From a virus, in IMG/VR virus record IMGVR_UViG_3300019487_000059, positions 1 to 37,930 of that record: a stretch of 37,930 bases of DNA, one strand, 5' to 3'. Made by a program: the position numbers and the translations under genes. Positions within the stretch are counted from its first letter, which is position 1. Each line of letters starts with the position of its first letter. The notes beneath the pieces were generated by a model, which had not been told where the DNA came from, did no database searches, and was given only the letters and a program-made list of their open reading frames with translations. Of the stretch, positions 18,834 through 36,536 are shown in pieces.

Positions 18834-19508
18834 ATGGCCGATTATAATACAGTCATTTCTATGTACGCTTCGTATAGACGTGCGATGGTAAATGTTGGAT
18901 GGAAAGTTAAATTACCTGCCAATACTAATCCTTCTAAAACATATGCATATCGTGCAATTAATAAATTTATTGATCAAGTCAAACAATGGAAGCTTGATAA
19001 TTCTATGATTGACATGCTGATAAATGAAATAGTCCAATATGGTAAACGCAATGGATTGTTAAGTAAAGGTACAGCATTGTTGAATATGAAATCAATCTTG
19101 CAGATATGCTATAATTTATTAAAGGGTCAAACAGATAGATCTGAATTATTGATTAATGAAATTAAAAAATCTCATGAATTCGTTTGTAAACATGCAAATG
19201 TTAATAAAGTTAAAATTTTTGTAACTAATCAACATAAAAATGGTTATGCTAATATTACTAAATGGTTTAGATCTGGCAATATTTCATTAAGTTATATTTC
19301 CATATCTGCTTCATGTAGAAAAGCTCTTAATTTGTTGAGTGTTGAAGATCGTTATGAATTTCCTGATGATTGTGCTTTATTGAGAAATAAGATTAAAATA
19401 TTACATGATAGTAATATGCGTGAGAAAATAAATAATATCATGGGTACTGATTTATTAGATATTGGATTAATGGAGAGTAGAAATGAAGATTTCAAGACAC
19501 TTCACTAA
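18834..19508 (+). CDS. Conserved-looking helical phage protein of unknown function
   Basis: This 224-residue protein starts at ATG 18834. It is basic and mostly helical, with NPSKTYAYRAINKFIDQVKQ, then INEIVQYGKRNGLLSKGTAL followed by LNMKSILQICYNLL. Proteins of this type occur in other large T4-like phages, but their role is not known to me. Its 3' end overlaps the nrdJ start by 26 nt, so it would be co-expressed with the reductase. It lacks a visible Shine-Dalgarno. Confidence 0.6.
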   Translation: MADYNTVISMYASYRRAMVNVGWKVKLPANTNPSKTYAYRAINKFIDQVKQWKLDNSMIDMLINEIVQYGKRNGLLSKGTALLNMKSILQICYNLLKGQTDRSELLINEIKKSHEFVCKHANVNKVKIFVTNQHKNGYANITKWFRSGNISLSYISISASCRKALNLLSVEDRYEFPDDCALLRNKIKILHDSNMREKINNIMGTDLLDIGLMESRNEDFKTLH

Positions 19509-22500
19509 AGCTGGAATTGATCCATTTAGTTATGTTGATTGGCGTGAGACCAATACAATTATTAAAAATGAAGTAACTGGTGAAGTGATTTTTAAAATTG
19601 AAAATGCTGAAGTACCAGCACATTTTTCTCAAATATCTCAAGATATAATTTTATCAAAATATTTAAGACTTACTAATATACCAACTAAAACTATAAAGAT
19701 TTCAGAAAAGACGCCAAGTGGTAAATTTATACCAGAATGGCTTCAACGATCTGTCCCGGTTGATGGATGTCAATTTAGTTATGAAATAAGTACTAAACAA
19801 GTGTTTCATCGAATGGCAGGATTTTGGACGTATTGGGGATTCTGGTATAATTATTTTGATTCTGAAGAAGATGCGCGAGCATTTTATGATGAGTCAATTT
19901 TTATGTTAGAAAATCAAATTGCTGCTCCAAATACTCCTCAATGGTTTAATAGTGGCATATATTGGGCATATGGATATACTGGTAAAAAGAAAGGATTCTG
20001 GAAAGCCGATCCTCAAACTTGTGTTGCTACAGAAACAGAAAATACATATGAATATCCAGGTGTTCATGCATGCCATCTTCAATCAGTGGGTGATAATTTA
20101 TTCGAGAGTGATGGTATCTTTAATAGAATAGTTAGTGAAGCTCGAGCATTTGTGTCTGGTGGTGGGACTGGTAGTAATTTTTCGGCAATTCGTTCGCGAT
20201 TTGAGAAACTTAGTAGTGGTAATATGGCTACTGGTTTGATGAGTTTCTTAAAAATATTTGATAAATCCGCTGGAGTTGTTAAATCTGGGTCTACACAAAG
20301 ACGAGCTGCTAAAATGGTAGTTGTGGATGCTGACCACCCTGAAGTATTAGAATTTATAAATTGGAAAGGTGTTGAAGAGAAGAAAGTTCAAGCATTAGCA
20401 CATAATGGATTTGATGCTGGTTGGGAAGGTGAAGCCTATCAAACTGTATCTGGACAAAATTCTAATAATTCAATTCGTATTAATAAAAAATTTATTGATT
20501 CGGTTGTAAATGATATAATATGGGAGATGACTGCTCGTACCACTGGTAAAGTTGTTAGACAAATTAAAGCATCCGAATTATGGCAAGCAATTAAGAAAGC
20601 TGCATGGGAATCTGGTGATCCAGGTATTCAGTATGATGATATTATCAATGATTGGAATACTTGTAAAAATGATGGTCGTATTAGGACTAGTAATCCATGT
20701 AATGAGTATGTTTTCTTAGATGATACATCGTGTAATTTAGCAACTTTGAATTTGCAGCGCTTATTTACTGACAATGGAGAATTGAAAATTGATGATTTTA
20801 AAGTTGCTTGCAGACATTGGATGATGGTATTGGATATATCGATAAATGCGGCACAGTTGCCCACTAAGGCATTGGCTGAAGGAACAGTGAAATATAGAAC
20901 TACTGGTTTAGGTCATTCTGGTATTGGAGCAGTTCTTATGCGGGCTGGTATACCTTATGATAGTGATAAGGCATGCCATTTATTAGCTGCTGTCACATCA
21001 TTGATGTTAGCTGAAAGTTATAGTATTAGTGCTGAAATGGCAAATGATCTTGGTACATTTCCTAGATATGCTGCCAATAAAGAATGTATGAATGCTGTGT
21101 TGCACAATCATGCAGTTAGCTCTCTTAAAAAGACTGAAAAATCGTGGTCTCTTCATAATTTAACAATAAAACCTTGGATAATAGATCATAATGCAATATC
21201 TGATACTTTAAGTGAAGCTATTACTGCTTCATGGAACAATACAATATCATTAGGTAATAAACATGGATATCGCAATGCGTTTACGACGGTTATTCAACCA
21301 AGTGGCACTGTTGGATTGATATTGGGTTGTGATACTACTGCCATTGAACCAGATTTCGGCATAGTTAAATTTAAACGTTTATCTGGTGGCGGATCAATGA
21401 AAATTGTCAACGAATCAGTTGAAATTGCATTGCGTAATTTAGGTTATACTGAACAACAAATTGATGATATAATGGTATATGTTCTTGGAAATAATACACT
21501 GGATGGTGCACCATATATTAATAGACAATCACTGATTGAACGTGGTATTACTGAATCTGATTTAGATGATATAGAAGCTAGATTTAGTGGATTGTGTCAA
21601 TTACGATATGCCATAATGCCACATAATTTATCTGATGAATCATTATATGCTATCGGATGTAATAAAACTACAGCTAATATTTTTAGTGCAATGGGGTTTC
21701 TTCAAGAACAATATGTTGAAGCTAATAAATGGATATGTGGATTTGGTACCTTAGAAGGTGCTCCCCATATTAAACCCGAACATCTCAACATATTTGATTG
21801 CGCAAATCGGAGTGGATATGGCAAACGATTTATTGGATGGGAGGCTCATGTTCGAATGTGTTCTGCTACATCAACATTTGTTTCGGGAGCGATATCTAAA
21901 ACTATAAATATGCCTAATGATGCAACAGAAGATGATATCGGGAAGGTTTATTTAATGTCATTTGATGGTCGTGGATCGACTAATTATTGTCCTGGTGGGA
22001 TTAAAGGTTTGGCAGTGTATAGAGATGGATCTAAACAATCTCAACCTCTTAATAATCCAACTGATATGAATTGGTGGATGTCATCAATTGATGATAATAA
22101 AATATATTTCCGTGGTGATCGTCGTAGACCACCTCGGAAACGTGAGTTAGTTGCTCATGAAATTACTATTTTTAATCCTCAAGGTTCTCATAAAGTAATT
22201 ATAAAGTTTGGAGAATATGAGGATGGAAATTTGGCAGAAGTATGGATAGAAGTTGGTAAGAGTAATCCAGATTTCACATTAGCAATGCGGTGGATGAGTA
22301 GAGCAATGTCTAATGCTATTCAATATGGACAGCCGTTGTCAGAAATTGCTGATAGTTTTATAAATGAGGAAGGTGGCCCAGCTGGTCGTACAGATCATCA
22401 ATATATAACATATTGTTCTAGTGTTCCAGATTTGGTAGTAAAATTAGCCATGCTAGAATATGAAGGCGATACAACGTATTGTAAGCGTATACCAGCACAA

Positions 22501-22707
22501 CATGAAGTTCGACGTGGACGTATATCCTATAAAAATGGTAATGGCAATGGTAATGGGCATAAAACAAATGGTGTATTAGGAGAACGTAGTATTATCACTA
22601 CACAAAAGGGCAGGGGTTGTCCCAAATGTGGATCTAGTGATTTACAGAAGTTCCCATGTGAATTATGTAATGCATGTGGATCATCATTGGGAGGGTGTTC
22701 TCCGTAA
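19483..22707 (+). CDS. nrdJ: Class II (adenosylcobalamin-dependent) ribonucleoside reductase NrdJ
   Basis: This 1074-residue enzyme has a strong ribosome binding site (GGAGAG) before ATG 19483. It converts ribonucleotides to deoxyribonucleotides using adenosylcobalamin to create the thiyl radical. Visible catalytic residues are the redox Cys197 in GVHACHLQSVGDN, the thiyl Cys406 and Glu408 in NPCNEY, and the partner Cys417 in DDTSCNLATL. The substrate-binding loop is VIQPSGTVGLILG. An Asn-Gly-rich linker leads to a C-terminal CPKCG...CELCNACG...GGC segment that is likely to receive electrons from thioredoxin. There is no intein, although reductases are common intein hosts. T4 itself uses class I and III enzymes, so this is a gene-content difference. 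Confidence 0.96.
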   Translation: MKISRHFTKAGIDPFSYVDWRETNTIIKNEVTGEVIFKIENAEVPAHFSQISQDIILSKYLRLTNIPTKTIKISEKTPSGKFIPEWLQRSVPVDGCQFSYEISTKQVFHRMAGFWTYWGFWYNYFDSEEDARAFYDESIFMLENQIAAPNTPQWFNSGIYWAYGYTGKKKGFWKADPQTCVATETENTYEYPGVHACHLQSVGDNLFESDGIFNRIVSEARAFVSGGGTGSNFSAIRSRFEKLSSGNMATGLMSFLKIFDKSAGVVKSGSTQRRAAKMVVVDADHPEVLEFINWKGVEEKKVQALAHNGFDAGWEGEAYQTVSGQNSNNSIRINKKFIDSVVNDIIWEMTARTTGKVVRQIKASELWQAIKKAAWESGDPGIQYDDIINDWNTCKNDGRIRTSNPCNEYVFLDDTSCNLATLNLQRLFTDNGELKIDDFKVACRHWMMVLDISINAAQLPTKALAEGTVKYRTTGLGHSGIGAVLMRAGIPYDSDKACHLLAAVTSLMLAESYSISAEMANDLGTFPRYAANKECMNAVLHNHAVSSLKKTEKSWSLHNLTIKPWIIDHNAISDTLSEAITASWNNTISLGNKHGYRNAFTTVIQPSGTVGLILGCDTTAIEPDFGIVKFKRLSGGGSMKIVNESVEIALRNLGYTEQQIDDIMVYVLGNNTLDGAPYINRQSLIERGITESDLDDIEARFSGLCQLRYAIMPHNLSDESLYAIGCNKTTANIFSAMGFLQEQYVEANKWICGFGTLEGAPHIKPEHLNIFDCANRSGYGKRFIGWEAHVRMCSATSTFVSGAISKTINMPNDATEDDIGKVYLMSFDGRGSTNYCPGGIKGLAVYRDGSKQSQPLNNPTDMNWWMSSIDDNKIYFRGDRRRPPRKRELVAHEITIFNPQGSHKVIIKFGEYEDGNLAEVWIEVGKSNPDFTLAMRWMSRAMSNAIQYGQPLSEIADSFINEEGGPAGRTDHQYITYCSSVPDLVVKLAMLEYEGDTTYCKRIPAQHEVRRGRISYKNGNGNGNGHKTNGVLGERSIITTQKGRGCPKCGSSDLQKFPCELCNACGSSLGGCSP

Positions 22708-24571: not shown

Positions 24572-26515
24572 ATGTTAGCTCGTCTGATTGATAATCATTG
24601 GGTATATCTTGATCAAGTTACATTAGGTATTGAACCTAAACTTATTGATCATTTTAGTGTTAGACATCCAAGATCATATTTTATTGATACTTCTCAACAA
24701 TCGTGGGATGGTTATTATCGTAAATATGATGCGAAACGTAAAAGGTTAGCACGTCCATTACTTCAAGAATTGATTAAATTTTGTAATGATAATGATATTC
24801 CATTAGAAATTAGTGATACTCGTCCTAAAGTCAATGTTCCAGATCCAAATCAAGTTGGTCCAGATTGGTTGCCTGGAATAATTCTTGAACAATATCAAAT
24901 TGATGCAATCAAGAAAACTACTGAAAATGAAGTTGGAATAATTAAATCTATTACTGGTAGTGGGAAGAGTGTTATGTTGACGGGTATAGTTAAATTATTT
25001 AATTGTCTAACTGTTGTAATTGCTGAGCAGAGAATTGTTATTGAACAATTGAAAGAGCGTCTTCAATTATTAGATATATTCGATGTTGGAATGTTTTATG
25101 GAGGAGAACGTCCAAATGGTCAAAAAGTAATAGTGGGATCTATTCAATCATTGAGTACACCTCCTGATTCATTAAGATTGAAGAATCCTACGATGTATGC
25201 TTCACGATTAAAGCACGCGCGTCAATTTCAAGCAATAGTGAAAAAAACTGATTTGTTGTTGGTTGATGAATGTGTACATGAAATGTCACGCATATCTACG
25301 GATAAGGGTTTAATTACCGCTAAAGAATTGGTTGAGAGATTAAAAAATAACGATCATATACAAGCTAGAGTAAATAATCAATATTATCCAATAACTGGTT
25401 GGTCTGATAAACATGATAAATCATTGATTATTACCACTAATACTTATAGAACTTTACAATGTTCTAGAAATCATAAAATTGTTACATTCGTGGATGGTAA
25501 GCGTGTTGATAAATATGCATCAGACCTTAAAGTTGGTGATTTATTGTTAGCATGCAACATGATATCAAAACTTAAAAGTATTGAAATTGATAATTTGAAT
25601 TCATATTCTATTGAAAGTGTGCGTTCTGTTAATGAAGGTGATGTGTGTAGGTTAATTGACTTTTCTGTTGATAATGTTCATTTATTTGAGGCGAATGGGT
25701 TATTGGTTCATAATTGTGACAAGGCCAGTGCTGCTAACTATCGAAATTTATTTAAATATTTTTATAATGGTAGAAGGCTTTATGGATTTACTGCTACTCC
25801 ATTTGATGTTCGTAAACCGGTTGAAAATTTAATTCTTAAAGAACATTTAGGATCAGTAATCTTTGAATCTGATAGACGTGAATTAGAAAAATTAGGTCGA
25901 ATTATTCCTATTAAATTCAATATGATTGTAGTTGGTGAGGATGGTTCTAAAAGTGATAAGACTGCATTCGATATTGCTGAGCGTGAACAACTTATAGATA
26001 ATATAGATTTTCATAATTTAATATCGAAGATTGTTAATAATTTTTATGATGAAAGTACGTTAATATTGGTTGATACGTGTAATGTTGAAGATTTAGGGTT
26101 TGCATTAGAAAAAGCAATCCCAGGATCTAAATTCATTTATGGTAAGACTACTAAGACAATGCGCAGAAAATATTTGAAAATGTTTGAAGCTAAAGAATTG
26201 AAATGCTTGATAGGGGGCAAGATACTCAAAAGGGGCTTAGACGTATGTCATGGGATGAATAATTTAATATTGTGTGGTGGAGGTCAATTGTGGTCTAATT
26301 TGGAGCAATCGATAGGAAGAAGTTTAAGATTAAATGATAAAGGATATGCTAGGGTGTTTGGATTTTTGTTCATGAATAGTTACTATTTATATAAGCATGG
26401 TAAAGAGCAATTAAAAGCTGTAGTTAGTATGGGGTATAAATCATCAGTTATATTTAGTGATAAAATAGTAGATGGCGAACAATTTGTAAAATCTAAATTT
26501 AGAAAACCAAAGTAA
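24572..26515 (+). CDS. uvsW: UvsW-type superfamily 2 helicase interrupted by a mini-intein
   Basis: The precursor has 647 residues; without the intein it has 499, close to T4 UvsW (503). Motif I is TGSGKS (residues 128-133), and motif II becomes VDECDKAS once residues 234-381 are removed. Motif III is FTATP (406-410) and motif VI is QSIGRSLR (579-586). The N-terminal ~100 residues carry the UvsW-like DNA-binding region (SFxxxDTSQQSWDGYYRKYD type). UvsW unwinds branched DNA and R-loops and controls origin use in T4. The protein cannot bind ATP properly before splicing, so the intein gates its activity. Confidence 0.88.
   Translation: MLARLIDNHWVYLDQVTLGIEPKLIDHFSVRHPRSYFIDTSQQSWDGYYRKYDAKRKRLARPLLQELIKFCNDNDIPLEISDTRPKVNVPDPNQVGPDWLPGIILEQYQIDAIKKTTENEVGIIKSITGSGKSVMLTGIVKLFNCLTVVIAEQRIVIEQLKERLQLLDIFDVGMFYGGERPNGQKVIVGSIQSLSTPPDSLRLKNPTMYASRLKHARQFQAIVKKTDLLLVDECVHEMSRISTDKGLITAKELVERLKNNDHIQARVNNQYYPITGWSDKHDKSLIITTNTYRTLQCSRNHKIVTFVDGKRVDKYASDLKVGDLLLACNMISKLKSIEIDNLNSYSIESVRSVNEGDVCRLIDFSVDNVHLFEANGLLVHNCDKASAANYRNLFKYFYNGRRLYGFTATPFDVRKPVENLILKEHLGSVIFESDRRELEKLGRIIPIKFNMIVVGEDGSKSDKTAFDIAEREQLIDNIDFHNLISKIVNNFYDESTLILVDTCNVEDLGFALEKAIPGSKFIYGKTTKTMRRKYLKMFEAKELKCLIGGKILKRGLDVCHGMNNLILCGGGQLWSNLEQSIGRSLRLNDKGYARVFGFLFMNSYYLYKHGKEQLKAVVSMGYKSSVIFSDKIVDGEQFVKSKFRKPK
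25271..25714 (+). mobile_element. Mini-intein in the UvsW DExD box
   Basis: This is a 148-residue intein without an endonuclease domain. It starts at Cys234 (CVHEMSRISTDKGLITAKEL), has a block B-like TLQCSRNHKIVTF, LKVGDLLLA, and a canonical end, VCRLIDFSVDNVHLFEANGL then LVHN, followed by Cys382 as the +1 residue. Excision restores VDE|CDKAS, splitting the Walker B motif exactly. All splicing nucleophiles (Cys1, His-Asn, Cys+1) are present. Confidence 0.9.
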
Positions 26516-26525
26516 TTGGAAATTA

Positions 26526-26553
26526 ATACTGAATTTCAGGCATTTGTCAGTAT
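26526..26553 (+). other. Stem-loop upstream of the sigma factor gene
   Basis: ATACTGA (26526-26532) pairs with TCAGTAT (26547-26553), a 7-bp stem with a 14-nt loop. It lies 18 nt before ATG 26572. The right arm runs into TATAAT at 26553-26558, a possible host-type -10 box without a clear -35. This is weak evidence for regulation. Confidence 0.3.
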
Positions 26554-26571
26554 ATAATTGTAATCCTTAAC

Positions 26572-28485
26572 ATGAAAAAGATTAAAAAAGAGCCTACAAC
26601 CTTACCATCTAAGGAAGGTGTTGAACAACAAGAGAAAAGTTATTATTTTAAGAATAGTGTGGTAGAAGCATTATTAACTAAATATGTTCAAGGTGGATGT
26701 GTAGATGTAAAATTGAGAGATGAGATAATGTCTCATGCCACAGAATTGATTAGACAAGTTATTCGCACCCATAATTTGCACAGCATATATCCAGGACACG
26801 ACCCAGCTAGTTTTGGGGATTTAATGCAGATAGCTTACTGTCAATTGGAAAAGTCATTGTACAAGTTTGATTGGAAACCTGGTCATACTAAAGTATTTAA
26901 TATGTGGTGTGTTAGTCCTGATACTATGCTCATGACCAATAATGGCATTGAACGAATGGGAAATGTTACTGCTTCTGCATTAGAATCTAATATATTTGGA
27001 CAGGCTTATGGTATTGGTGGGTTGCATAACGTAGAAGCAACCAAAATAAAAGCTCCACAAGATGTAGTGGATATTACTACTTCATTAGGATATAATATTA
27101 AATGTACTAGAGAGCATAATATTTTAACATTATCGTCAACTGGCCCACATTGGATGGCTGCTGGTGATCTTAAAAATGGTGATTTGGTAGGTATTCAATA
27201 TAATCAACAATATTTTGTCAATAATGATGATATTAGTGATATTAAGCTAAATTCTAAAGTTAGGGATAAATGGCATCCTCCTACTATATTAACTGAAGAA
27301 TTGGCATATATTATTGGTTTGTTTATATCAGAGGGTGCATTTGATACAAATGCGGTATGTATCTATAATAGTGGTATACAAGTTTGTGAATCAGTATTGA
27401 ACAATAAATCAGGAATTGTTTTTAATTATGATAAACGCAATAATAAACTTTATACATGTATAAAAAGGTTTAAAGAATTTTTATTGGCGTTGGGATTTCC
27501 AGAAAAACTTACTGCTCAAACTAAATTTATTCCATCTAGACTATTAAAGTGTTCTAAACCCATATTGGCTTCATTATTACGTGGAATTTTTAGTTCTAAC
27601 AATTATAATATTTTTTCATCTTCTTCAAAATTATTATTCGATCAAGTTCGCATGTTATTATTAAATTTTGGTATTATATCAAGAGTTTTTGTTGATGATC
27701 GTATTGGATATGTCAGTAAAATTATTAGACGCAATCAAACTGAAGGACGTATGTATGGCGTTTCGGATCATATGTATAGACTGGCACGCACATGCAAACT
27801 TAATGGCAAATTGCAATATGATCTAGGTAATAATTATAATGCTTTATGGCGCATACAAAGAGATTTTCCGATTATAGAATCAAAGGTTGACCATGATAAT
27901 CTCGATTATAAGTTTGTAAGAGAACGTTTAGATGAACGCGTCGCTATTTCTGATAATGTCATATGGTTGCCGGTTAATAAGATTAAAAATGATAAGAGTG
28001 TTGTTTGTGAGATTTCTGTTGATTCATTAGATCATTCTTATATTGCTAATGGTATTATATCTCATAATTCACAAGTAACTCGAACTGTCATTCTAGCTCA
28101 CATTAAACGTGAAATGCGAGATAAGAAAAATTATGGATCGTATAAAGGCCACCTTTCCAATAAACATCGACCTAACAGCGCAATGTTTGAAAGATTTGTA
28201 AATGAAGCTAAAGAGATAGCTAAATATGATCCAGATGCATTGGCGATAGTTGGTGCGTTAGAACAATTATATCAGAATGATGAAAAACCATATGATGGTT
28301 TAATTGGTAAACTTGTTAAAATTAGCAAATTGTCTAGACAGAAAGTGATAGCGTTTTTGAAACAAGTTAGATTACGAAGTTTTGAATTTACTGACTCTCC
28401 TCTTAATCAGATTCGTCATTCTAAATCTACTGGCAATCCTAGGTATGATGAAGAGTCTGATGATGATATGGAGGAAGATGGATAA
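26572..28485 (+). CDS. gp55: Late sigma factor (T4 gp55-like) interrupted by a LAGLIDADG intein
   Basis: The precursor has 637 residues; the spliced product has 250. Exteins are KSYYFKNSVVEALLTKYVQG at the start and a sigma-70 region-2-like core, DLMQIAYCQLEKSLYKFDWK, that joins as KVFNMW|SQVTRTVILAHI plus KREMRDKKNYGSYKGH. This matches gp55-type phage sigma factors, which pair with host RNA polymerase core and recognise TATAAATA late promoters. The C-terminus is acidic. A second helical part (KIAxLSRQKVIAFLKQVR type, ~residues 590-610) resembles a helix-turn-helix. Late gene expression would require splicing. Confidence 0.85.
   Translation: MKKIKKEPTTLPSKEGVEQQEKSYYFKNSVVEALLTKYVQGGCVDVKLRDEIMSHATELIRQVIRTHNLHSIYPGHDPASFGDLMQIAYCQLEKSLYKFDWKPGHTKVFNMWCVSPDTMLMTNNGIERMGNVTASALESNIFGQAYGIGGLHNVEATKIKAPQDVVDITTSLGYNIKCTREHNILTLSSTGPHWMAAGDLKNGDLVGIQYNQQYFVNNDDISDIKLNSKVRDKWHPPTILTEELAYIIGLFISEGAFDTNAVCIYNSGIQVCESVLNNKSGIVFNYDKRNNKLYTCIKRFKEFLLALGFPEKLTAQTKFIPSRLLKCSKPILASLLRGIFSSNNYNIFSSSSKLLFDQVRMLLLNFGIISRVFVDDRIGYVSKIIRRNQTEGRMYGVSDHMYRLARTCKLNGKLQYDLGNNYNALWRIQRDFPIIESKVDHDNLDYKFVRERLDERVAISDNVIWLPVNKIKNDKSVVCEISVDSLDHSYIANGIISHNSQVTRTVILAHIKREMRDKKNYGSYKGHLSNKHRPNSAMFERFVNEAKEIAKYDPDALAIVGALEQLYQNDEKPYDGLIGKLVKISKLSRQKVIAFLKQVRLRSFEFTDSPLNQIRHSKSTGNPRYDEESDDDMEEDG
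26908..28068 (+). mobile_element. Full-length intein with a LAGLIDADG domain in the sigma factor
   Basis: This 387-residue intein begins at Cys113 (CVSPDTMLMTNNG), has block B IKCTREHNILTL and LKNGDLVGIQ, and ends VCEISVDSLDHSYIANGIIS then HN, with Ser500 as +1. The endonuclease domain has LAYIIGLFISEGAF (catalytic Glu254) and LLRGIFSSNNYNI, where the second catalytic acid is Asn343. The splicing elements look intact, but the nuclease is probably impaired. Confidence 0.92.
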
Positions 28486-28509
28486 TATAGCTCGTGCACT
28501 GATTAAATA

Positions 28510-28541
28510 ATTAGGCGAAGATACTATATTCAATGCCTAAT
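28510..28541 (+). other. Hairpin covering the start codon of the repeat protein gene
   Basis: ATTAGGC at 28510-28516 pairs with GCCTAAT at 28535-28541, whose first base is the G of ATG 28533. The 18-nt loop holds the region where a ribosome binding site would lie. This could limit initiation in some transcripts. Confidence 0.35.
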
Positions 28542-30686
28542 ATATCATCAAAGATTGAAAATAAATTGCTTCAGGAATCGACATCTGATTTAGAAATGTC
28601 TCTTGTTGATATTTGGCGTTATGAGGATCTGCATGAAGTATTCCAACCATACGATAGACAGAAAGCAATTGAATGGTTAACTTATAGTGGGTTAACAACA
28701 TTACGCGATGATAAAGATAGAATTGTTAAGATTAGAGGTAGGTTTAAAAATGTTTGGTTAGAGCATCATATTTCACCATATATTAATGTTAATGTTTATG
28801 ATAATAATGATAATTGGATAGCATGGGGATATGATAATGTTTGGAATAAGGATCTTCATGCTTATAGAGATTTAGAAGAATTTCTACCTAGAATAGAACA
28901 ATATCTTAATGAACCGATAAAAAAGCCACAAAGGCCGAGTGATTTTAGAACCATTGGACAAGAAATTGTACTTCATGTTTCTAATGGTTCTAAGATATAT
29001 ATATTTAGTTATCATTCATTAGTAGCAATAAAATTTTATCCTAAGATTCATGAACCGACTGAGTTACATGATAAGGATGAATGGGAGGAAGAAAATTCTT
29101 TCAGGAGATTATCTATAGAAGAAGCTGACAAAGATTTTATGCAAGAAATTTCTAAAGGTGCTGAAATTCTTGAAAATATAAATCGGAGTTTGATAGTGGA
29201 ATCAATTGATATGGAAATGGCATTGTTACCTCAAGGTTTACTTCCTTCACCATCAAGTTTGAAATCAATACAATCTAAGTTACAACCATATAATAGAGAA
29301 AAAGCAATTTCTTTTTTGTTAAGAGATGATTCATATAATTATATGGTTATGAAGGGGGCTGTTAAAACGGCTATAATTGATTGTTTTGGTGCTATTATGC
29401 ATGTTGAAGTAGATGGGAAGAATGTTTCATATTATTTAGATATGCCAAATTTGGCCCGTGCTAATCCTACTTACAATATACGCCCTAAATTAATGTGGTT
29501 AGAAACTTATCTTAATGAACCAATTAAAGAGCCTACTAGACCAAATGAATTTCGTGTTGATGATCAAGAATTGATTTTAAAATGGACTGATATAAATAAA
29601 AATACAACTTATACTAGTTTTAAATACGATTATCCTAGTGATGAAATTATAGTTAGTGATTATAAAATAACGATTCCAACAGAATTACACGATCAAGATG
29701 AATGGTATAAGGCTGAACTTTGGTTTATTCAAACTGCTGATAAATTGTTTAATGATTTAGTAAAGTCTGGGGCCCAGTTAACTAAATCAATAAATGAAGG
29801 TATTTCCCCTCTTTCTCATGACAATTCAATATCACGAGCTATTCGTAAACATAAAACACCTCGTTCACGTCGTCATATGCATGGGAGTGATCGTTATCGT
29901 AAATCTAATCCTACCCGTAAAGTTCAAGCACATATGAGACGAGATTCAAGACATCAACCCAAACCGGAATCTGAAGAAGTTTCTAAATTTATAATAGATA
30001 ATAATGGTAAGAAAGTTGAAGTTGAATCTATTAGGAATATTGATAAGAATTTGTTATATGAATCGATTTGCGCTCTATTATCGATGTCATTGGCAAAATG
30101 GAATAAATTAGAAAATGGTGTTACAGATGGAACAACTATTTTAGAACATGATGGTCTAACATGTGAAAATGGTAATCTACTTCTTAATGGCAAGAAATTG
30201 AATTTAAATTTTGATTGGTTATATGAAGTTAAAGAAATGATAATTAAAGTACTTAATGAGGATAATCAATCTATAGATTTATTAAATGGTCAAGTATTAA
30301 AGATCGGTGATTGGTTTGAATATCGTGGATGGCCATTACAATTAGTTAAATTTAGAGGTCGATTTGCTGGTGATAATGCATTTTATATTAATGATGAATT
30401 ATTGCCAGATACTTCTGGAGTGACATGGAATGGTAGACCGCATAATAAGCATAACCCATGTAGTTCAATTTTTAGATGGCCAGAGCGAATTTCTAATCAA
30501 GAGGTAGTGGAGATGCATGATAAAGATGAGTGGGAAGGTAATACTCATTCTTTTTTCGGTGGCATTATACATGAGTTAGATATTCTAGATTTTGTGTCAA
30601 ATAATGAGATACATAAAATAAACGATATTAAAGATTACTCAAAAAAGAATAACATAAATTGGGATACATATGGACATAAATGCTGA
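28533..30686 (+). CDS. Large repeat protein of unknown function with three HDxDEW motifs
   Basis: The protein has 717 residues. Two clear repeats contain YLNEPIKKPQRPSDFRTIGQ...PTELHDKDEWEEEN and YLNEPIKEPTRPNEFRVDDQ...PTELHDQDEWYKAE, each followed by a helix ending SKGAEI or KSGAQL. A third, more divergent unit ends VVEMHDKDEWEGN. Between the second and third is a strongly basic linker (RAIRKHKTPRSRRHMHGSDR and further Arg/Lys). No known domain is recognised. It is encoded between the sigma factor and the terminase and overlaps the small terminase start by 17 nt. Confidence 0.7.
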   Translation: MPNISSKIENKLLQESTSDLEMSLVDIWRYEDLHEVFQPYDRQKAIEWLTYSGLTTLRDDKDRIVKIRGRFKNVWLEHHISPYINVNVYDNNDNWIAWGYDNVWNKDLHAYRDLEEFLPRIEQYLNEPIKKPQRPSDFRTIGQEIVLHVSNGSKIYIFSYHSLVAIKFYPKIHEPTELHDKDEWEEENSFRRLSIEEADKDFMQEISKGAEILENINRSLIVESIDMEMALLPQGLLPSPSSLKSIQSKLQPYNREKAISFLLRDDSYNYMVMKGAVKTAIIDCFGAIMHVEVDGKNVSYYLDMPNLARANPTYNIRPKLMWLETYLNEPIKEPTRPNEFRVDDQELILKWTDINKNTTYTSFKYDYPSDEIIVSDYKITIPTELHDQDEWYKAELWFIQTADKLFNDLVKSGAQLTKSINEGISPLSHDNSISRAIRKHKTPRSRRHMHGSDRYRKSNPTRKVQAHMRRDSRHQPKPESEEVSKFIIDNNGKKVEVESIRNIDKNLLYESICALLSMSLAKWNKLENGVTDGTTILEHDGLTCENGNLLLNGKKLNLNFDWLYEVKEMIIKVLNEDNQSIDLLNGQVLKIGDWFEYRGWPLQLVKFRGRFAGDNAFYINDELLPDTSGVTWNGRPHNKHNPCSSIFRWPERISNQEVVEMHDKDEWEGNTHSFFGGIIHELDILDFVSNNEIHKINDIKDYSKKNNINWDTYGHKC

Positions 30687-31119
30687 TACAAATTTGCCTT
30701 TTGAACCTGATATCAATGCTTCATTAGATTCTGTTCAAAATGAATTAGAGAATCCAGCAGATCAAAATTTGGAAGAACAAAAAGATGAAGTACAGCAATT
30801 GGTTTCTAGATTTAAGCAAATAGCTGATGTTATATTGACAAATTATAATTCAGATCGTGATCAGATTGAAGATACAATTAAACATTTAGATTCAATAGTT
30901 CAAATGGGTCCTAAAGTACCAAGAGTGTATGTAGAAATGTTAGTGTCTGCTTTACGGGTGAAAACTGAGACTAGCGGTAATGTAGTTAAATTGCTTGATT
31001 CTCTTGCAAAATTATTATCTGCTGGTAAGAATACTCAAATTTTTACAGCTTCAGTTAATACATCACCAGCAGATCTTAAAGCATTGTTGGATGTTCCCAG
31101 ATTTCCGGATGAAAAATAA
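30670..31119 (+). CDS. Small terminase subunit, gp16-like (tentative)
   Basis: This 149-residue acidic, helical protein lies directly before the large terminase, with 2 nt between them. T4 gp16 is 164 residues. The segment IEDTIKHLDSIVQMGPKVPR followed by VYVEMLVSALRVKTETSGNV has the antiparallel coiled-coil core seen in small terminases, which form a ring that regulates the motor and recognises DNA. The assignment rests on position, size and helical layout more than on a strict motif. Confidence 0.7.
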   Translation: MDINADTNLPFEPDINASLDSVQNELENPADQNLEEQKDEVQQLVSRFKQIADVILTNYNSDRDQIEDTIKHLDSIVQMGPKVPRVYVEMLVSALRVKTETSGNVVKLLDSLAKLLSAGKNTQIFTASVNTSPADLKALLDVPRFPDEK

Positions 31120-31121
31120 AC

Positions 31122-33380
31122 ATGGCTTTAGATGAAGTAGCGAAGAAGATCCTTAGACGATGTCAAGGAAGTCCATCATATTTTCTTGACACATTTGCTA
31201 AAATTAACCATCCTAAATTAGGTATAATCCCTTTTAAATTGTTTTCATATCAGCAGAAATGCTTAAAGGAATTTTTAAAGAATAGATTTACAATCTTTAA
31301 GAAAACAAGACAGTGTTTAGCAGAAGGCACGATAATTTATACTCCAAATGGTCCTAAAAAGATTGAAGATCTTAAAATAGGAGATATAATCTATTCATAT
31401 AAAGATGGCAAAGTTGTTGAATCTGCAGTTAGTAACCATTTCGAAACTGGTATACGTGAATGTATTAAAATAAGTACAGAAAATAAAGATATTATTTGTA
31501 CACCTGATCATAAATTTTTAATTAATGATAAATGGGTCAGAGCTGATGAACTTAAAATTAAAGTTGATTCATTCACAATGCCGTTTGGTGATGAATTATC
31601 TGAAGTTAGTAATAAATTTGGTTTAATTAAAAAAATTGAGCCAGCTGGTAAACATTGTGTGTTTGACATTACTGTTGATAATACACATTGTATGGTTGCT
31701 AATGGTTTTGTTACTCATAATTGCGGCGTGTCCACCATATCAGGTGGTTTTGCACTTTGGTATGCTATGTTTTCAAGCAATAAGAATATTTTAATTGTGT
31801 CGAAGCGTGATGATGATAGTAAGGAATTTCTGAATAAGAATGTTAAGACAATTTATAATAATCTTCCAGAGTGGATGCAAAATTTATGGCCACTTACGTC
31901 AAGCAATGAGCATGAGATAGTATTTGCTAATAATTCTCGCATTAAAAGTTTAACATCTTCTAAGGATACATTAAGATCACAAGCCGCATCATTAAACATC
32001 ATTGATGAGGCTGCCTTTTGTCCTGAAATGGATATCATGTGGTCTGGAGGTTGGTCTACTATCTCTCATGGAGGTTCAGTTATAGTTATTAGTACTGTCT
32101 CAGGTGTTGGAACTTGGTATTGGCAAACATGGACTGATGCGGAAGCTGGATTGAATGATTTCAAGCCAATTGTAATAAATTGGTGGGATATGGATTGGAA
32201 ACTCTCATTCGTTGATGAATTATCTGGTAAAAACACTATAATAGCGCCTACTGATAGTATGCGTAAGTGTGAAGTTCAAGAGGAGATTGATAAATATGGA
32301 CAATATTGGAGTCCATGGCTCGAGGAGCAATATCGAAATTTGACACAAAAAGGAGATCCTAGGAAATTTTATCAAGAAGTATTGGCTCAATTTATTGGAT
32401 CAGGAAATACTGTCTTGGGTCGTCCTGCATTAGTTCATATTCAAAACAACATACAAGAATCCAGTAAAGAATATAGAACAATTGCTGAAGTTGATTATGT
32501 CAATCCAACAACGGATGAACCATCAATACTAAATTTTGAGGATAAATTGTGGATATGGAAAACACCATATCATGGTTCTAATAAACAAGGCGACGATTCA
32601 CATATATATTCAGTTGGTGTTGATACTAGTTCAGGTGATGGGAATGATTTTTCTGCTATTCAAGTAATTGATATTTCTACTCAAGAGCAAGTAGCGGAAT
32701 TACAAATTCGCACATTACCTCGTACTTTGTCTATGATGGCTGATTATATTGCTAGATGGTATAATAATGCTTTTATGGTAGTAGAACGCACTGGTATTGG
32801 TTCTACAATATGTCAAGATCTTGCTGAAATGTTATTATATCAAAATTTATATCGTCGGCCTAAGAAGAATATGTATAATAAGGAATCTAAATATGGTGAT
32901 GTTGGATTTAATACTAGTGTTACTACTAAGCCATTATTAAATAAGGTCTTAATAGATCATATAGGTGAAGAAGGAATTACAATAAGATCTCCTAGGTTAT
33001 ATAAGGAATTTACTATTTATGTGCATTTAAGAGGTGGTCGCACTGGAGCTGAACCTGGTAAAGGTAATACTGACGATTTAGTAATGTCATTTGCATTGGC
33101 ATTAATAGGTATGAATCAAGCAGTGTCAATTGATAATACTGCATTAAAACCTGTTCAAGGATCTATAAATCCTGCATTACATAATCCTGTGGTAGTACAG
33201 CAAAAATTGCAGAAGATGATGACTGATAATAATTTATTATTACCAACAGCTATTCCTCTTGATATAAATTCATCTCCCACAATAAGTCAAGAAATTTCTA
33301 AATTTACTAAGCAGTTGGTATCATTACCGAAATCTAATGTTGTTAATATTAAAAATCACATCATTCGTAAGAAGAAATAA
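31122..33380 (+). CDS. terL: Large terminase subunit (gp17/TerL) interrupted by a mini-intein
   Basis: The precursor has 752 residues; the spliced product has 616 (T4 gp17: 610). Removing residues 65-200 rejoins the Walker A as FKKTRQ|CGVSTISGG. Walker B is SLNIIDEAAF (Asp295, Glu296), followed by the coupling motif VISTVSGVGTW. The nuclease domain has YSVGVDTSSGDGNDFSAIQV (Asp501) and NTDDLVMSFALAL. It drives DNA into the prohead and cuts concatemers. The gene ends at 33380, nine bases before a late promoter octamer. Confidence 0.93.
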   Translation: MALDEVAKKILRRCQGSPSYFLDTFAKINHPKLGIIPFKLFSYQQKCLKEFLKNRFTIFKKTRQCLAEGTIIYTPNGPKKIEDLKIGDIIYSYKDGKVVESAVSNHFETGIRECIKISTENKDIICTPDHKFLINDKWVRADELKIKVDSFTMPFGDELSEVSNKFGLIKKIEPAGKHCVFDITVDNTHCMVANGFVTHNCGVSTISGGFALWYAMFSSNKNILIVSKRDDDSKEFLNKNVKTIYNNLPEWMQNLWPLTSSNEHEIVFANNSRIKSLTSSKDTLRSQAASLNIIDEAAFCPEMDIMWSGGWSTISHGGSVIVISTVSGVGTWYWQTWTDAEAGLNDFKPIVINWWDMDWKLSFVDELSGKNTIIAPTDSMRKCEVQEEIDKYGQYWSPWLEEQYRNLTQKGDPRKFYQEVLAQFIGSGNTVLGRPALVHIQNNIQESSKEYRTIAEVDYVNPTTDEPSILNFEDKLWIWKTPYHGSNKQGDDSHIYSVGVDTSSGDGNDFSAIQVIDISTQEQVAELQIRTLPRTLSMMADYIARWYNNAFMVVERTGIGSTICQDLAEMLLYQNLYRRPKKNMYNKESKYGDVGFNTSVTTKPLLNKVLIDHIGEEGITIRSPRLYKEFTIYVHLRGGRTGAEPGKGNTDDLVMSFALALIGMNQAVSIDNTALKPVQGSINPALHNPVVVQQKLQKMMTDNNLLLPTAIPLDINSSPTISQEISKFTKQLVSLPKSNVVNIKNHIIRKKK
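31314..31721 (+). mobile_element. Mini-intein in the terminase Walker A motif
   Basis: This 136-residue intein begins at Cys65 (CLAEGTIIYTPNGPKKIEDL), has block B DIICTPDHKFLI with the standard TPDH, and ends VFDITVDNTHCMVANGFVTH then N, with Cys201 as the +1 residue. There is no endonuclease domain. It interrupts the nucleotide-binding loop, so the unspliced terminase cannot hydrolyse ATP. Confidence 0.94.
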
Positions 33381-33388
33381 TTTTCAAA

Positions 33389-33396
33389 TATAAATA
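33389..33396 (+). promoter_or_regulatory. T4-type late promoter upstream of the portal
   Basis: TATAAATA is a perfect match to the T4 late promoter recognised by gp55. It lies in the 180-nt gap after terL, 30 nt before the leader ORF and 165 nt before the portal ATG. The phage encodes a gp55-like factor at 26572. Confidence 0.75.
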
Positions 33397-33425
33397 AAGT
33401 ATATATAAAATTAGAGGAATAATTA

Positions 33426-33557
33426 ATGCATCGTGCTTTTAAATATCGTCTTATTTTAAGGCTTGGACGAAGCCTTCGGGGTTCTGCTTTCAGCACCGAG
33501 AAAGCCCTTACTCAGAGTAATAGAGTAGAGAATAATAAAGTAAGGGAGGAGTCATAA
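33426..33557 (+). CDS. Leader ORF of 43 codons upstream of the portal gene
   Basis: ATG 33426 follows a good ribosome binding site (AGAGG) and the frame ends at TAA 33557, 3 nt before the portal ATG. The product (MHRAFKYRLILRLGRSLRGS...) is basic. The DNA is visibly richer in G+C than its surroundings and folds into several hairpins, so this may be a translated leader or simply structured RNA that happens to be open. Confidence that the peptide matters by itself is low. Confidence 0.4.
   Translation: MHRAFKYRLILRLGRSLRGSAFSTEKALTQSNRVENNKVREES
33458..33546 (+). promoter_or_regulatory. Structured leader with competing hairpins before the portal
   Basis: AAGGCTT (33458-33464) pairs with AAGCCTT (33470-33476). 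An overlapping alternative pairs CTTCGG (33474-33479) with CCGAG around a TGCT/AGCA stem. CCCTTACT (33505-33512) pairs perfectly with AGTAAGGG (33539-33546), which runs into the portal Shine-Dalgarno GGGAGGAG. Mutually exclusive stems and a partly covered ribosome binding site suggest translational control of the portal. Confidence 0.5.
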
Positions 33558-33560
33558 AAT

Positions 33561-36536
33561 ATGTCTTGGCAACTATTTGATAGGTTAGCTGCTTTCTTTA
33601 AAGCTACTAACATATATAGATCTGAAAATCTTTTCCAGGATCAATCATCCTTAGCGCGGATTTCGGCTGGTGGGGAATTTGTAAATTATAGTAGCCATGC
33701 TAGCTTGTTAGAACAAACTAATTTACAGATCAATCGCCTAGAACGCTATAAGGATTTTGACATGGAGGATAATGTAGGGGAAATAACTGCGGCACTTGAT
33801 ATGTATGCTGATTATGCTAGTTTGATAGATCCTGAATATAGACATAGCATAATGATTAAAGCTAAATCATTACGAGTTAAAACAGAATTAGAAGATCTGT
33901 TTTATAACACATTAATGATTGATAATATGCTTCGGCCTATGATCCGTTATTTATGCAAATATGGAGATTTTCCAGCAGAAATTGTTCCAACTCAAAATCG
34001 TAATGGTATAGCATCATTGCGACATATGAACATTTATAATTTTACGCGTGTAGAAACTAAATATGGTGATTTAGTTGGTTTCTTTTATCAAGATGAAATG
34101 GCTAGTCAACCAACATTCTTGCATCCATGGCAAGTTCTACATTTAAGATTAACTAGTTATGAATCTTTATATAATCCATATGGGAGGTGCGCTGGGTTTG
34201 GTACTAAAATTCTTACCCCCAATGGATATAAGAATATTGAGAATTTTAAATCTGGTGATGACGTTTATGTCTATGACCGTAATAATAAACTAGTTGTCAG
34301 TAAAGTTGTTGCTGCTTGCCATAGTGGTGAGAAGGATATTTTAGAGATCAAGACACGACACTATTCTAATCATTGTAGCCCCAACCATCCAGTACTAGTT
34401 CGTGAATGGACTAAGAAACCATCCAAAGTCGGTGGTCGTAAGTGGTTTGCAGATCTTGTTTATAAGCGTGCTGATGAATTGAAAGCAGGTGATGAATTAG
34501 TTATTCCAAGACCATTAGAAAAACATGATTATCAAGTATTGGGAGATATTAAAGGTAATGTTATAAAAGCTGATGAGCAATTCGCCAAGTTATTTGGGTT
34601 TCTAATTGGTGATGGATGGATTAAGAGAGCTTATGGAAATAATAAAGGCGTAGAATTTGCAAATGGCGTAGATGATATTCAAAATGAATATTATAAATCG
34701 TTATTAGCTGAATATAGTCCTAATAAGGTTGTTTCTTATAAAAAAGTTGGATCATTAAGTGTTTTAACAGAAGATGCAACTCATACTTATTCTAAAGATT
34801 TTGCTAATTTCTTAGAATCTAAATGTGGTTTCATTCAAGGATCTCATAATAAGAGAATTCCTCAATGGGTTTTTGCAAGTCCAAAATCAGTACAAATTGC
34901 TTTTATTGAGGGATTAGTTGACGCTAATGGGTCTATCAATACAGATAGATGGAATTGCGATCGATATCAGATTGAACTTTCCAATCATGAATTAATTAAA
35001 GATGTGAAGTTCTTATTACATCTTATTGGTTGGAAATGTAGTCATATTCAAAAACGCAAGCGTAATGGTAAAGTGATATTCCATAGTAAAGAATATGAGC
35101 GCAGTGGTTCATGGTTGTTATATTTTTATAAATCTGACATTTTCAAGTCAGCTGGCAAACATGTTCAAAGAAATGGTTGTCATGGTTACGATATTCGTAT
35201 TGAAGAATCGAAGAGATTTGGTACTGATACCATATTCGAGCCGATTATTTCTATAGCTAATGATGGTCGTGCTAATACGGCTGATATCCAGGTTGCCCAT
35301 GAAGCTTCGAATTTTATTGCTGATGGTATAGTAGTTCATAATAGTATTCTTGATGGTACACGTAAGACATTTAAACAATTAAGATTAATGGAAGATGCAG
35401 CATTAGTTTATCGTTTAGAACGTGCATCGGAGAAGTTAATCTTCAAAATCCCAGTAGGAAATATTCCTCCCAAAGAAGTTCCACAATATTTGCAATTAAT
35501 CGCTCGTGAATTTAAGAAGCGTAAAATTTTCGATCCAGCTTCTGGTGATGTGTCTGAAAGATATCAACCATTAATTCAGAATGATTACATATTCCTTCCA
35601 AGAAGAGCTGATGGGACTGGTCCCGAAATAGACACTTTGCCTGGTGCAGAAAATCTTGATCAAATAGCAGATATTGAATATTTTAAAAAGAAAATGGTTT
35701 CGGCTTTGAAAATTCCATTTTCTAGAGTTGGTATCGGAGAACCGTCCGATGGAGATTCCGAGCCACTTTCAAAGGTAGCGCCAGAATTTGCTAAATCTGT
35801 TCAATGGATTCAACGAGAAATTGCCATCGGGTTAAAGAAAGTTGCTATAACTCATTTAGCTTTACGTGGTTTTTCTGCTGATGAAATTCGTTCATTTGAT
35901 TTATTTATGACTGCTTCATCTGCTATTGATGAATTGTATAGGATTGAGACTTGGGCATCTCGTGCCGATGTTATTGATTCTCTTAAGAATACTGAGCTAT
36001 TCACTGATAAGTGGATACTGGAACATTTTAGTACAATGACTGAAGATGAAATTCAACAAATGAGAGATGAAAAAGAAAAACAACAAGAGAAAGAAACTAG
36101 CCCTGGAGGTGGTGGGCTTCCTAAATTAGGTGGTTCACTTCCTAAGCCTGGAATGCCTGAAATGCCTGATTTAATTCCAGGAGAAGGTGAAGGAGCTGAA
36201 TTAACTGATATGCCTATGCCTGGTGAAACTGAAGGATTAGATACGGCACCATTAGAACCTCCATTGGAAGGTTATAATCTTGATAAAGAAAAACAAGTTT
36301 TAATGGAATTTCATAATCAATTTAAGAAGCGTAAAGTAGACTATAATAGTGCTTTTGATTATTTGATGGCCGTTGGTGAATTTGATGAGTTGCCATTTTC
36401 TGGTGATAAACTTGTGAAGCGTGTATTAAAAGAGGAAGATGTAAAAAGTGCAATAGAAGATGCTAAAATTATTATTAAGCAGGAGTCTCAGCCAGTAATT
36501 TTAGAGGATATCACTGTTGATGACATTCCTGAATAA
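33561..36536 (+). CDS. gp20: Portal protein (gp20-like) interrupted by a LAGLIDADG intein
   Basis: The precursor has 991 residues; the spliced product has 606. Extein features fit T4-type portals: LQINRLERYKDFDMEDNVGE near the start, YRHSIMIKAKSLRVKTELED, the join ESLYNPYGR|SILDGTRK then TFKQLRLMEDAALVYRLERA, and PSDGDSEPLSKVAPEFAKSV. The C-terminal region is Gly/Pro/Met-rich (residues ~845-910), longer than needed for the portal core. The dodecameric portal is the DNA gate of the head and nucleates prohead assembly. The gene has a strong ribosome binding site, and its leader carries a perfect late promoter. Confidence 0.92.
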   Translation: MSWQLFDRLAAFFKATNIYRSENLFQDQSSLARISAGGEFVNYSSHASLLEQTNLQINRLERYKDFDMEDNVGEITAALDMYADYASLIDPEYRHSIMIKAKSLRVKTELEDLFYNTLMIDNMLRPMIRYLCKYGDFPAEIVPTQNRNGIASLRHMNIYNFTRVETKYGDLVGFFYQDEMASQPTFLHPWQVLHLRLTSYESLYNPYGRCAGFGTKILTPNGYKNIENFKSGDDVYVYDRNNKLVVSKVVAACHSGEKDILEIKTRHYSNHCSPNHPVLVREWTKKPSKVGGRKWFADLVYKRADELKAGDELVIPRPLEKHDYQVLGDIKGNVIKADEQFAKLFGFLIGDGWIKRAYGNNKGVEFANGVDDIQNEYYKSLLAEYSPNKVVSYKKVGSLSVLTEDATHTYSKDFANFLESKCGFIQGSHNKRIPQWVFASPKSVQIAFIEGLVDANGSINTDRWNCDRYQIELSNHELIKDVKFLLHLIGWKCSHIQKRKRNGKVIFHSKEYERSGSWLLYFYKSDIFKSAGKHVQRNGCHGYDIRIEESKRFGTDTIFEPIISIANDGRANTADIQVAHEASNFIADGIVVHNSILDGTRKTFKQLRLMEDAALVYRLERASEKLIFKIPVGNIPPKEVPQYLQLIAREFKKRKIFDPASGDVSERYQPLIQNDYIFLPRRADGTGPEIDTLPGAENLDQIADIEYFKKKMVSALKIPFSRVGIGEPSDGDSEPLSKVAPEFAKSVQWIQREIAIGLKKVAITHLALRGFSADEIRSFDLFMTASSAIDELYRIETWASRADVIDSLKNTELFTDKWILEHFSTMTEDEIQQMRDEKEKQQEKETSPGGGGLPKLGGSLPKPGMPEMPDLIPGEGEGAELTDMPMPGETEGLDTAPLEPPLEGYNLDKEKQVLMEFHNQFKKRKVDYNSAFDYLMAVGEFDELPFSGDKLVKRVLKEEDVKSAIEDAKIIIKQESQPVILEDITVDDIPE
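34188..35342 (+). mobile_element. Full-length intein with a LAGLIDADG domain in the portal
   Basis: This 385-residue intein begins at Cys210 (CAGFGTKILTPNGYKNIENF), has HYSNHCSPNHPVLV as block B and LKAGDELVIPR, and ends TADIQVAHEASNFIADGIVV then HN, with Ser595 as +1. The endonuclease motifs are FAKLFGFLIGDGWI (Asp351) and FIEGLVDANGSI, where the second catalytic position is Asn456. It may be a weak or dead nuclease. Confidence 0.93.

Follow-up and report, generated by a model that had tools for sequence, protein, structure and literature searches.

The window, by which we mean the whole stretch of DNA analysed here, is the complete IMG/VR record IMGVR_UViG_3300019487_000059, a linear metagenomic fragment of 37,930 bases. 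Pfam matches to Portal_T4 (9.3e-65) and T4_baseplate (2.1e-11) place the phage among the T4-like myophages. Four of its genes, for a UvsW-like helicase, a probable gp55-like late sigma factor, the large terminase subunit (TerL) and the portal, encode precursors that are each a single open frame without internal stops and that each contain one intein. The features are as follows, with carets at the splice junctions:

24572..26515, plus strand: precursor of a UvsW-like DEAD/DExD helicase, 647 aa, of which 499 aa are extein; matched by Pfam ResIII (7.7e-14) and Helicase_C
25271..25714, plus strand: mini-intein of 148 aa in the DECD box of UvsW, lacking an endonuclease domain; VDE^CVHEM..LLVHN^CDKA; Pfam match, Hint fold in the model
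26572..28485, plus strand: precursor of a probable gp55-like late sigma factor, 637 aa, of which 250 aa are extein; fold match, no sequence-family match
26908..28068, plus strand: 387-aa intein of gp55, whose LAGLIDADG endonuclease is degenerate; NMW^CVSPD..IISHN^SQV
27589..27603, plus strand: destroyed LAGLIDADG motif 2 in the gp55 intein, reading FSSNN, against FDGDG in 6/6 relatives
31122..33380, plus strand: precursor of TerL, 752 aa, of which 616 aa are extein; matched by PHROG terminase large subunit (2e-31) and, in tblastn, by TerL of T4-like phages
31314..31721, plus strand: mini-intein of 136 aa in the Walker A region of TerL, lacking an endonuclease domain; TRQ^CLAEG..FVTHN^CGVS(T)
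33561..36536, plus strand: precursor of the gp20-like portal, 991 aa, of which 606 aa are extein; Pfam Portal_T4 9.3e-65, PHROG portal 7.4e-58
34188..35342, plus strand: 385-aa intein of the portal, whose LAGLIDADG endonuclease is full-length; YGR^CAGFG..IVVHN^SIL
34926..34928, plus strand: AAT codon in the portal intein endonuclease, encoding Asn at the place of the second catalytic Asp (LVDANG); Asp in 6/6 other full-length same-site inteins

The initial annotation had placed four inteins at 25271-35342, in the DExD box of UvsW, region 2 of gp55, the Walker A motif of TerL and the portal, each with Cys1, a terminal His-Asn and Cys or Ser at +1, and each flanked by exteins that rejoin to a normal-length homologue. 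Boundaries computed from the splice residues bore this out to the base, as the interval runs exactly from the start of the first intein to the end of the last. Cys1 and the terminal His-Asn are present in all four inteins, and the +1 residues of UvsW, gp55, TerL and portal are Cys, Ser, Cys and Ser, respectively. Pfam Intein_splicing (PF14890) matched all four with E values from 7e-8 to 2e-10, and the NCBIfam models of intein N- and C-termini (TIGR01445/01443) matched most of the eight ends. The exteins were aligned with intein-free homologues, as had been proposed, and the joins were clean at all four sites, the homologues without an insert aligning straight across the junction. The gene and motif assignments hold as well; sequence matches make those of the helicase, TerL and the portal secure, whereas that of gp55 is held up by its fold match to T4 gp55 only. 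Chance or false inteins were ruled out by the Pfam matches, the splice residues and the Hint fold of the UvsW intein; the four inserts are inteins with an in-frame Hint splicing domain, for which splicing itself is predicted. Because key motifs are interrupted, the helicase, the sigma factor, the packaging motor and the portal would all depend on splicing.

The G+C content of the inteins (0.29-0.34) is similar to that of the exteins (0.31-0.35). A whole-window scan with PF14890 revealed no inteins beyond these four, and no group I introns, other RNA elements or tRNAs were found in the window, including by an Rfam search. Class II ribonucleotide reductase genes are frequent intein hosts; the window encodes such a B12-dependent enzyme of 1074 aa (19483-22707), which adjoins baseplate genes and in which no intein was found. 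The gp55 and TerL genes are separated by two ORFs of 717 aa and 149 aa. The longer one (28533-30686) had no family match and carries, as judged by eye, HDKDEW-like motifs three times; its similarity to relatives is confined to residues ~420-586, which correspond to a shorter ORF in the same position.

Mini-inteins of the helicase and the terminase

For comparison, we compiled a set of 237 loci (numbered with the prefix L), almost entirely from IMG/VR, which gave 131 clusters after merging of loci sharing sequence. Homologues were aligned with a program allowing long insertions, and inteins were called on a length of at least 120 aa together with a junction score, which thereby excluded native inserts of ~60-110 aa in gp55 and UvsW. 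IMG/VR fragments may miss genes, and cluster counts are given without phylogenetic correction. The nearest relative of the window (L005/L010) shares 65-76% extein identity with it, and its UvsW, gp55 and TerL sites are empty.

The joined UvsW extein matched the PHROG DNA helicase family at 3.6e-48. The UvsW intein is the weakest of the four by sequence, with a Pfam score of 32.9 bits, just below the curated cut-off of 35.8 bits, and of 36.1 bits in the whole-window scan. Its structural model (pLDDT 85.7) gave 63 PDB matches at E<=0.001, inteins leading, with a TM of 0.82 to gp41-1; as modelled, the UvsW intein is of the Hint fold. In the alignment of homologues, the intein-free UvsW of L005/L010 reads VDECDRA across the site. 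The inteins found at the same site in L021 and L079 are full-length (448 and 457 aa) and retain both LAGLIDADG motifs. The UvsW homologue of L079 (L079:2283-6584, a 4.3-kb ORF) carries two inteins, one in the DECD box and the other just before the downstream SGT motif.

The TerL mini-intein matched the Mtu RecA intein by sequence (PDB search, 2e-11). Over 108 aa it is 63% identical to the splicing region of the L093 intein (335 aa), and it is without the ~190 residues that form the endonuclease of the latter; full-length inteins at this site measure 331-337 aa and have both LAGLIDADG motifs. TerL of L005/L010 is unbroken across the site, and intein-free TerL was found in 47 of the 68 complete genes of relatives. 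Endonuclease-free inteins recur at this position (TerL 64), namely in the window, L073, L094 and L113. A Cys at -3 could take part in a redox-trap disulphide. Many relatives have this residue (KCRQ^C), and a redox trap at the window TerL was rejected, as Thr takes its place there (KTRQ^C). A second TerL hotspot lies at extein residues 173-176 (L077, L084, L088, L099, L113, L116, L128, L155, L167, L177 and L183); its inteins are full-length and all have Thr at +1, and their aligned position varies by 1-3 residues between lineages in an unrefined alignment.

Altered endonucleases in the sigma factor and the portal

The gp55 assignment was made by fold comparison, because Pfam, PHROGs, a PDB sequence search, tblastn against phages and hhalign to T4 gp55 gave no match. 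The intein-free homologue of L005 was modelled with a pLDDT of 78.7, and the model matched T4 gp55 in the RNA polymerase complex (7d7c_F) with a probability of 1.00, an rmsd of 2.8 and a TM of 0.66 by target length over 120 columns. Most of the matches listed for this model were sigma factors, all at E>0.01. Judging from the model, the interrupted gene very likely encodes a gp55-like sigma factor with the intein in region 2. In L005/L010, the site is uninterrupted and reads FNFWSQVAK. The loss of the second LAGLIDADG motif in the gp55 intein is accompanied by wider decay of the endonuclease: of 42 endonuclease columns invariant in the other members, the window keeps 28, with 5 gaps, against a loss of only 1-4 columns in each of the other inteins at this site, and 14 of 15 splicing columns are kept. 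Many relatives (e.g. L027:3032-4060) have just before the intein site a Cys-rich, zinc-ribbon-like insert of ~68 aa, which is not an intein and is absent from the window and L005.

The portal intein shares 70% identity with its counterpart at this site in L010 (69% within the endonuclease), and intein-free portal homologues occur in L008 and L006. A faster decay of the window's portal endonuclease was not seen, with 18 residues changed in the window only and 14 in L010 only. Since the domain is otherwise well kept and one catalytic codon is changed, its activity, as far as the sequence tells, may have been lost only recently. Alternatively, the Asn codon may be a minority variant or a base error.

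Distribution of inteins among related phages

The presence of inteins in related genomes, proposed as a check together with the initial annotation, proved to be patchy. Among the 47 clusters with four complete genes, 27 had no intein, 11 had one, five had two, one had three and three had four; all four genes were interrupted in the window only. At the sites used in the window, inteins were also present in other clusters, namely two in the case of UvsW, four in that of gp55, ten in that of TerL and six in that of portal (one with two), and each of the four proteins has further insertion sites. Whole-record scans also revealed relatives, of 98 to 185 kb, that have no Pfam intein match. The spread of inteins between genomes was slightly above that expected from independence (p 0.034, with the window left out and the genomes being few and related), which suggests a mild per-genome excess. 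The notion that four inteins in one genome are unique was rejected: the same number was found in the genes considered here in L084/L085 and in L025, and the phage represented by L086-L088 has at least eight.

The inteins were related by site rather than by genome. The best match of 47 out of 57 inteins was at the same insertion site, compared with 6.2 expected and a maximum of 19 in 5000 label shuffles, and all four window inteins were closest to the same-site intein of another phage. This kinship, read from sequence comparison, is as would be expected of site-specific homing elements. A single intein spreading within the genome as the source of all four was rejected, each being closest to its same-site counterpart in another phage.

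Predicted loss of endonucleases and proposed origin

An intact homing endonuclease, with both catalytic acids, was found in none of the four window inteins, and it is this prediction that is new here. The domain is lost from the UvsW and TerL inteins, motif 2 is lost and the remainder decayed in gp55, and a catalytic Asp is replaced by Asn in the portal. By the same criteria, 18 of the 23 same-site inteins in other phages look intact, the remaining five being three TerL mini-inteins, one portal mini-intein and one portal intein with Asn in motif 1. Under random assignment, four dead endonucleases out of four would occur with a chance of 0.007, a post hoc value that treats the inteins as independent and comes from a window selected for having four. 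In the PhoVMA intein, loss of the catalytic aspartates was shown by experiment to accompany loss of cutting (PMC8966425), and we infer that all four window inteins have lost homing activity. The window would thus represent a late stage of the homing cycle in which only splicing is kept, because the endonucleases are lost or broken in all four inteins and more often intact elsewhere.

The reading that we consider highly probable is that the four inteins belong to independent site lineages, were acquired by homing and now only splice, as worn-out parasites rather than parts of a shared switch. Four independent cis-splicing inteins would have been acquired by a T4-like phage from an intein-rich clade, arriving in conserved codons through endonuclease-driven homing between co-infecting phages. 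Splicing by the standard chemistry of Cys1, His-Asn and Cys+1 or Ser+1 would yield a normal-length helicase, late sigma factor, TerL and portal. The endonucleases would then have decayed, by deletion in UvsW and TerL, by loss of motif 2 and further decay in gp55 and by the change of a catalytic Asp to Asn in the portal. Splicing would be retained because without it the host motif stays broken, and the inteins would persist since the interrupted residues are essential, so that removal could occur only by exact deletion. Boundaries, clean joins, kinship by site, patchy occupancy and the state of the endonucleases can be read directly from the sequences; the splicing of all four, their arrival by homing and the present loss of homing would follow as the probable interpretation.

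Regulatory and other explanations

The initial annotation had offered two readings, a chance enrichment of mobile elements or a gate by which a single condition controls late development. The former fits the patchiness and the site lineages and stands; the latter is disfavoured by the patchy occupancy and by the lack of a shared sensor. Under a gate, one shared signal (redox, metal or temperature) would slow all four inteins and delay late transcription, packaging and head assembly; inteins kept for splicing only, by jointly delaying the maturation of the sigma factor, terminase, portal and helicase, would form a protein-level timer of late development. All four do lie in essential genes, their endonucleases are lost and their splicing residues kept, as for elements retained only for splicing, the combination of four interrupted genes is the window's alone among the 47 phages, and host inteins that splice conditionally have been documented (e.g. 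PMC6195587, PMC7360933). However, the conservation of occupancy that would be expected of a conditional-splicing regulator is not seen among the relatives, as the nearest one is without three of the four inteins and most are without all. Moreover, the four inteins are of different lineages, one per site, the -3 Cys that many relatives have in TerL is absent from the window, and no sensor feature shared among the four window inteins was found. Insertion into functional or conserved motifs is a general rule for inteins (PMC2814812); the interruption of key motifs is therefore no evidence of regulation and needs no regulatory reason. Because the predicted conservation is contradicted and a common sensor is unsupported, a gate or timer of this kind seems very unlikely.

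A more limited role, in which one or some of the inteins (e.g. that of TerL or UvsW) are kept as a brake on that protein and the others are decaying passengers, appears somewhat less improbable and is still unlikely. The recurrence of endonuclease-free inteins at the TerL 64 site might mean that they were kept once homing had been lost, but repeated endonuclease loss combined with rare exact excision gives the same pattern, and TerL is commonly intein-free in relatives. As the window is a metagenomic fragment, it could also be an assembly artefact or a chimera of unrelated intein-bearing pieces. The order UvsW, gp55, two ORFs, TerL and portal is, however, the same in L005, every precursor is a single open frame, and inteins and exteins are alike in G+C, which leaves an artefact extremely improbable.

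Relation to known intein-bearing phages

Phage inteins are usually reported singly or in pairs. Intein-rich phages and inteins in TerL and portal are already known, and the count in the window is high but exceeded by that of the L086-L088 phage. The Campylobacter phages CP220, CPt10 and IBB_35 (Eucampyvirinae, T4-related) have a small TerL intein at the equivalent residue (PRQ^C..SHN^S, compared with TRQ^C..THN^C in the window), but the extein is distant (24% identity) and +1 is Ser there and Cys here; the IBB_35 genome also has other inteins and introns (PMC3322345). Dense inteins and introns occur in core genes, including TerL, of crAss-like Zeta/Delta phages, with at most three inteins per genome reported (PMC7886860); these belong to another phage order and have mostly group I introns, whereas the window has inteins only and no Rfam match. 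Mycobacteriophage inteins reside in the TerL ATPase centre and the portal, at several sites per protein and in some cases with functional endonucleases (PMC5050341), but the phages are unrelated and the sites and inteins differ. In haloarchaeal MCM, several inteins per gene, in full and mini forms, show patchy gain and loss (PMC10643990), although this is a cellular helicase and one gene, not four. The VMA intein of P. horikoshii resembles those of the window in that its LAGLIDADG domain is degenerate through catalytic Asp loss and truncation while the splicing domain is kept (PMC8966425); both motifs are lost there and its inactivity is experimental, whereas that of the window inteins is predicted. 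The cyanophage-like inteins gp41-1 and NrdJ-1 (PDB 6qaz, 8ubs), whose Hint fold the model of the UvsW mini-intein matched, are naturally split, unlike the contiguous inteins of the window.

With empty, full, degenerate and mini alleles matched by site, this uncultured T4-like clade makes the homing cycle measurable rather than assumed, and it supplies natural mini-inteins together with their full-length site-mates. In the window genome, any regulatory role of splicing could be examined without homing as a confounder.

A higher count than in the window was observed in the phage of L086-L088, three overlapping assemblies identical in their overlap, which has at least eight inteins in ~14 kb (L088:3-3110, L088:4327-8622 and L087:5438-11617). 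Four lie in the portal and two each in TerL and gp55, one of the gp55 pair being truncated where the contig ends. No precedent for a back-to-back intein tandem was found in the largely open-access literature searched. In this phage, two portal inteins (L087:6536-7753 and L087:7754-8983, also in the ORF L086:7575-13754) abut with zero extein residues between them (PYGR^CQIFG..VVHN^CLGGD..VVHN^SVLD). Each has splice residues and LAGLIDADG motifs, and Cys1 of the second is the +1 residue of the first, which raises the question of the order of splicing. The portal ORF of L086/L087 as a whole holds four inteins in 2060 aa.
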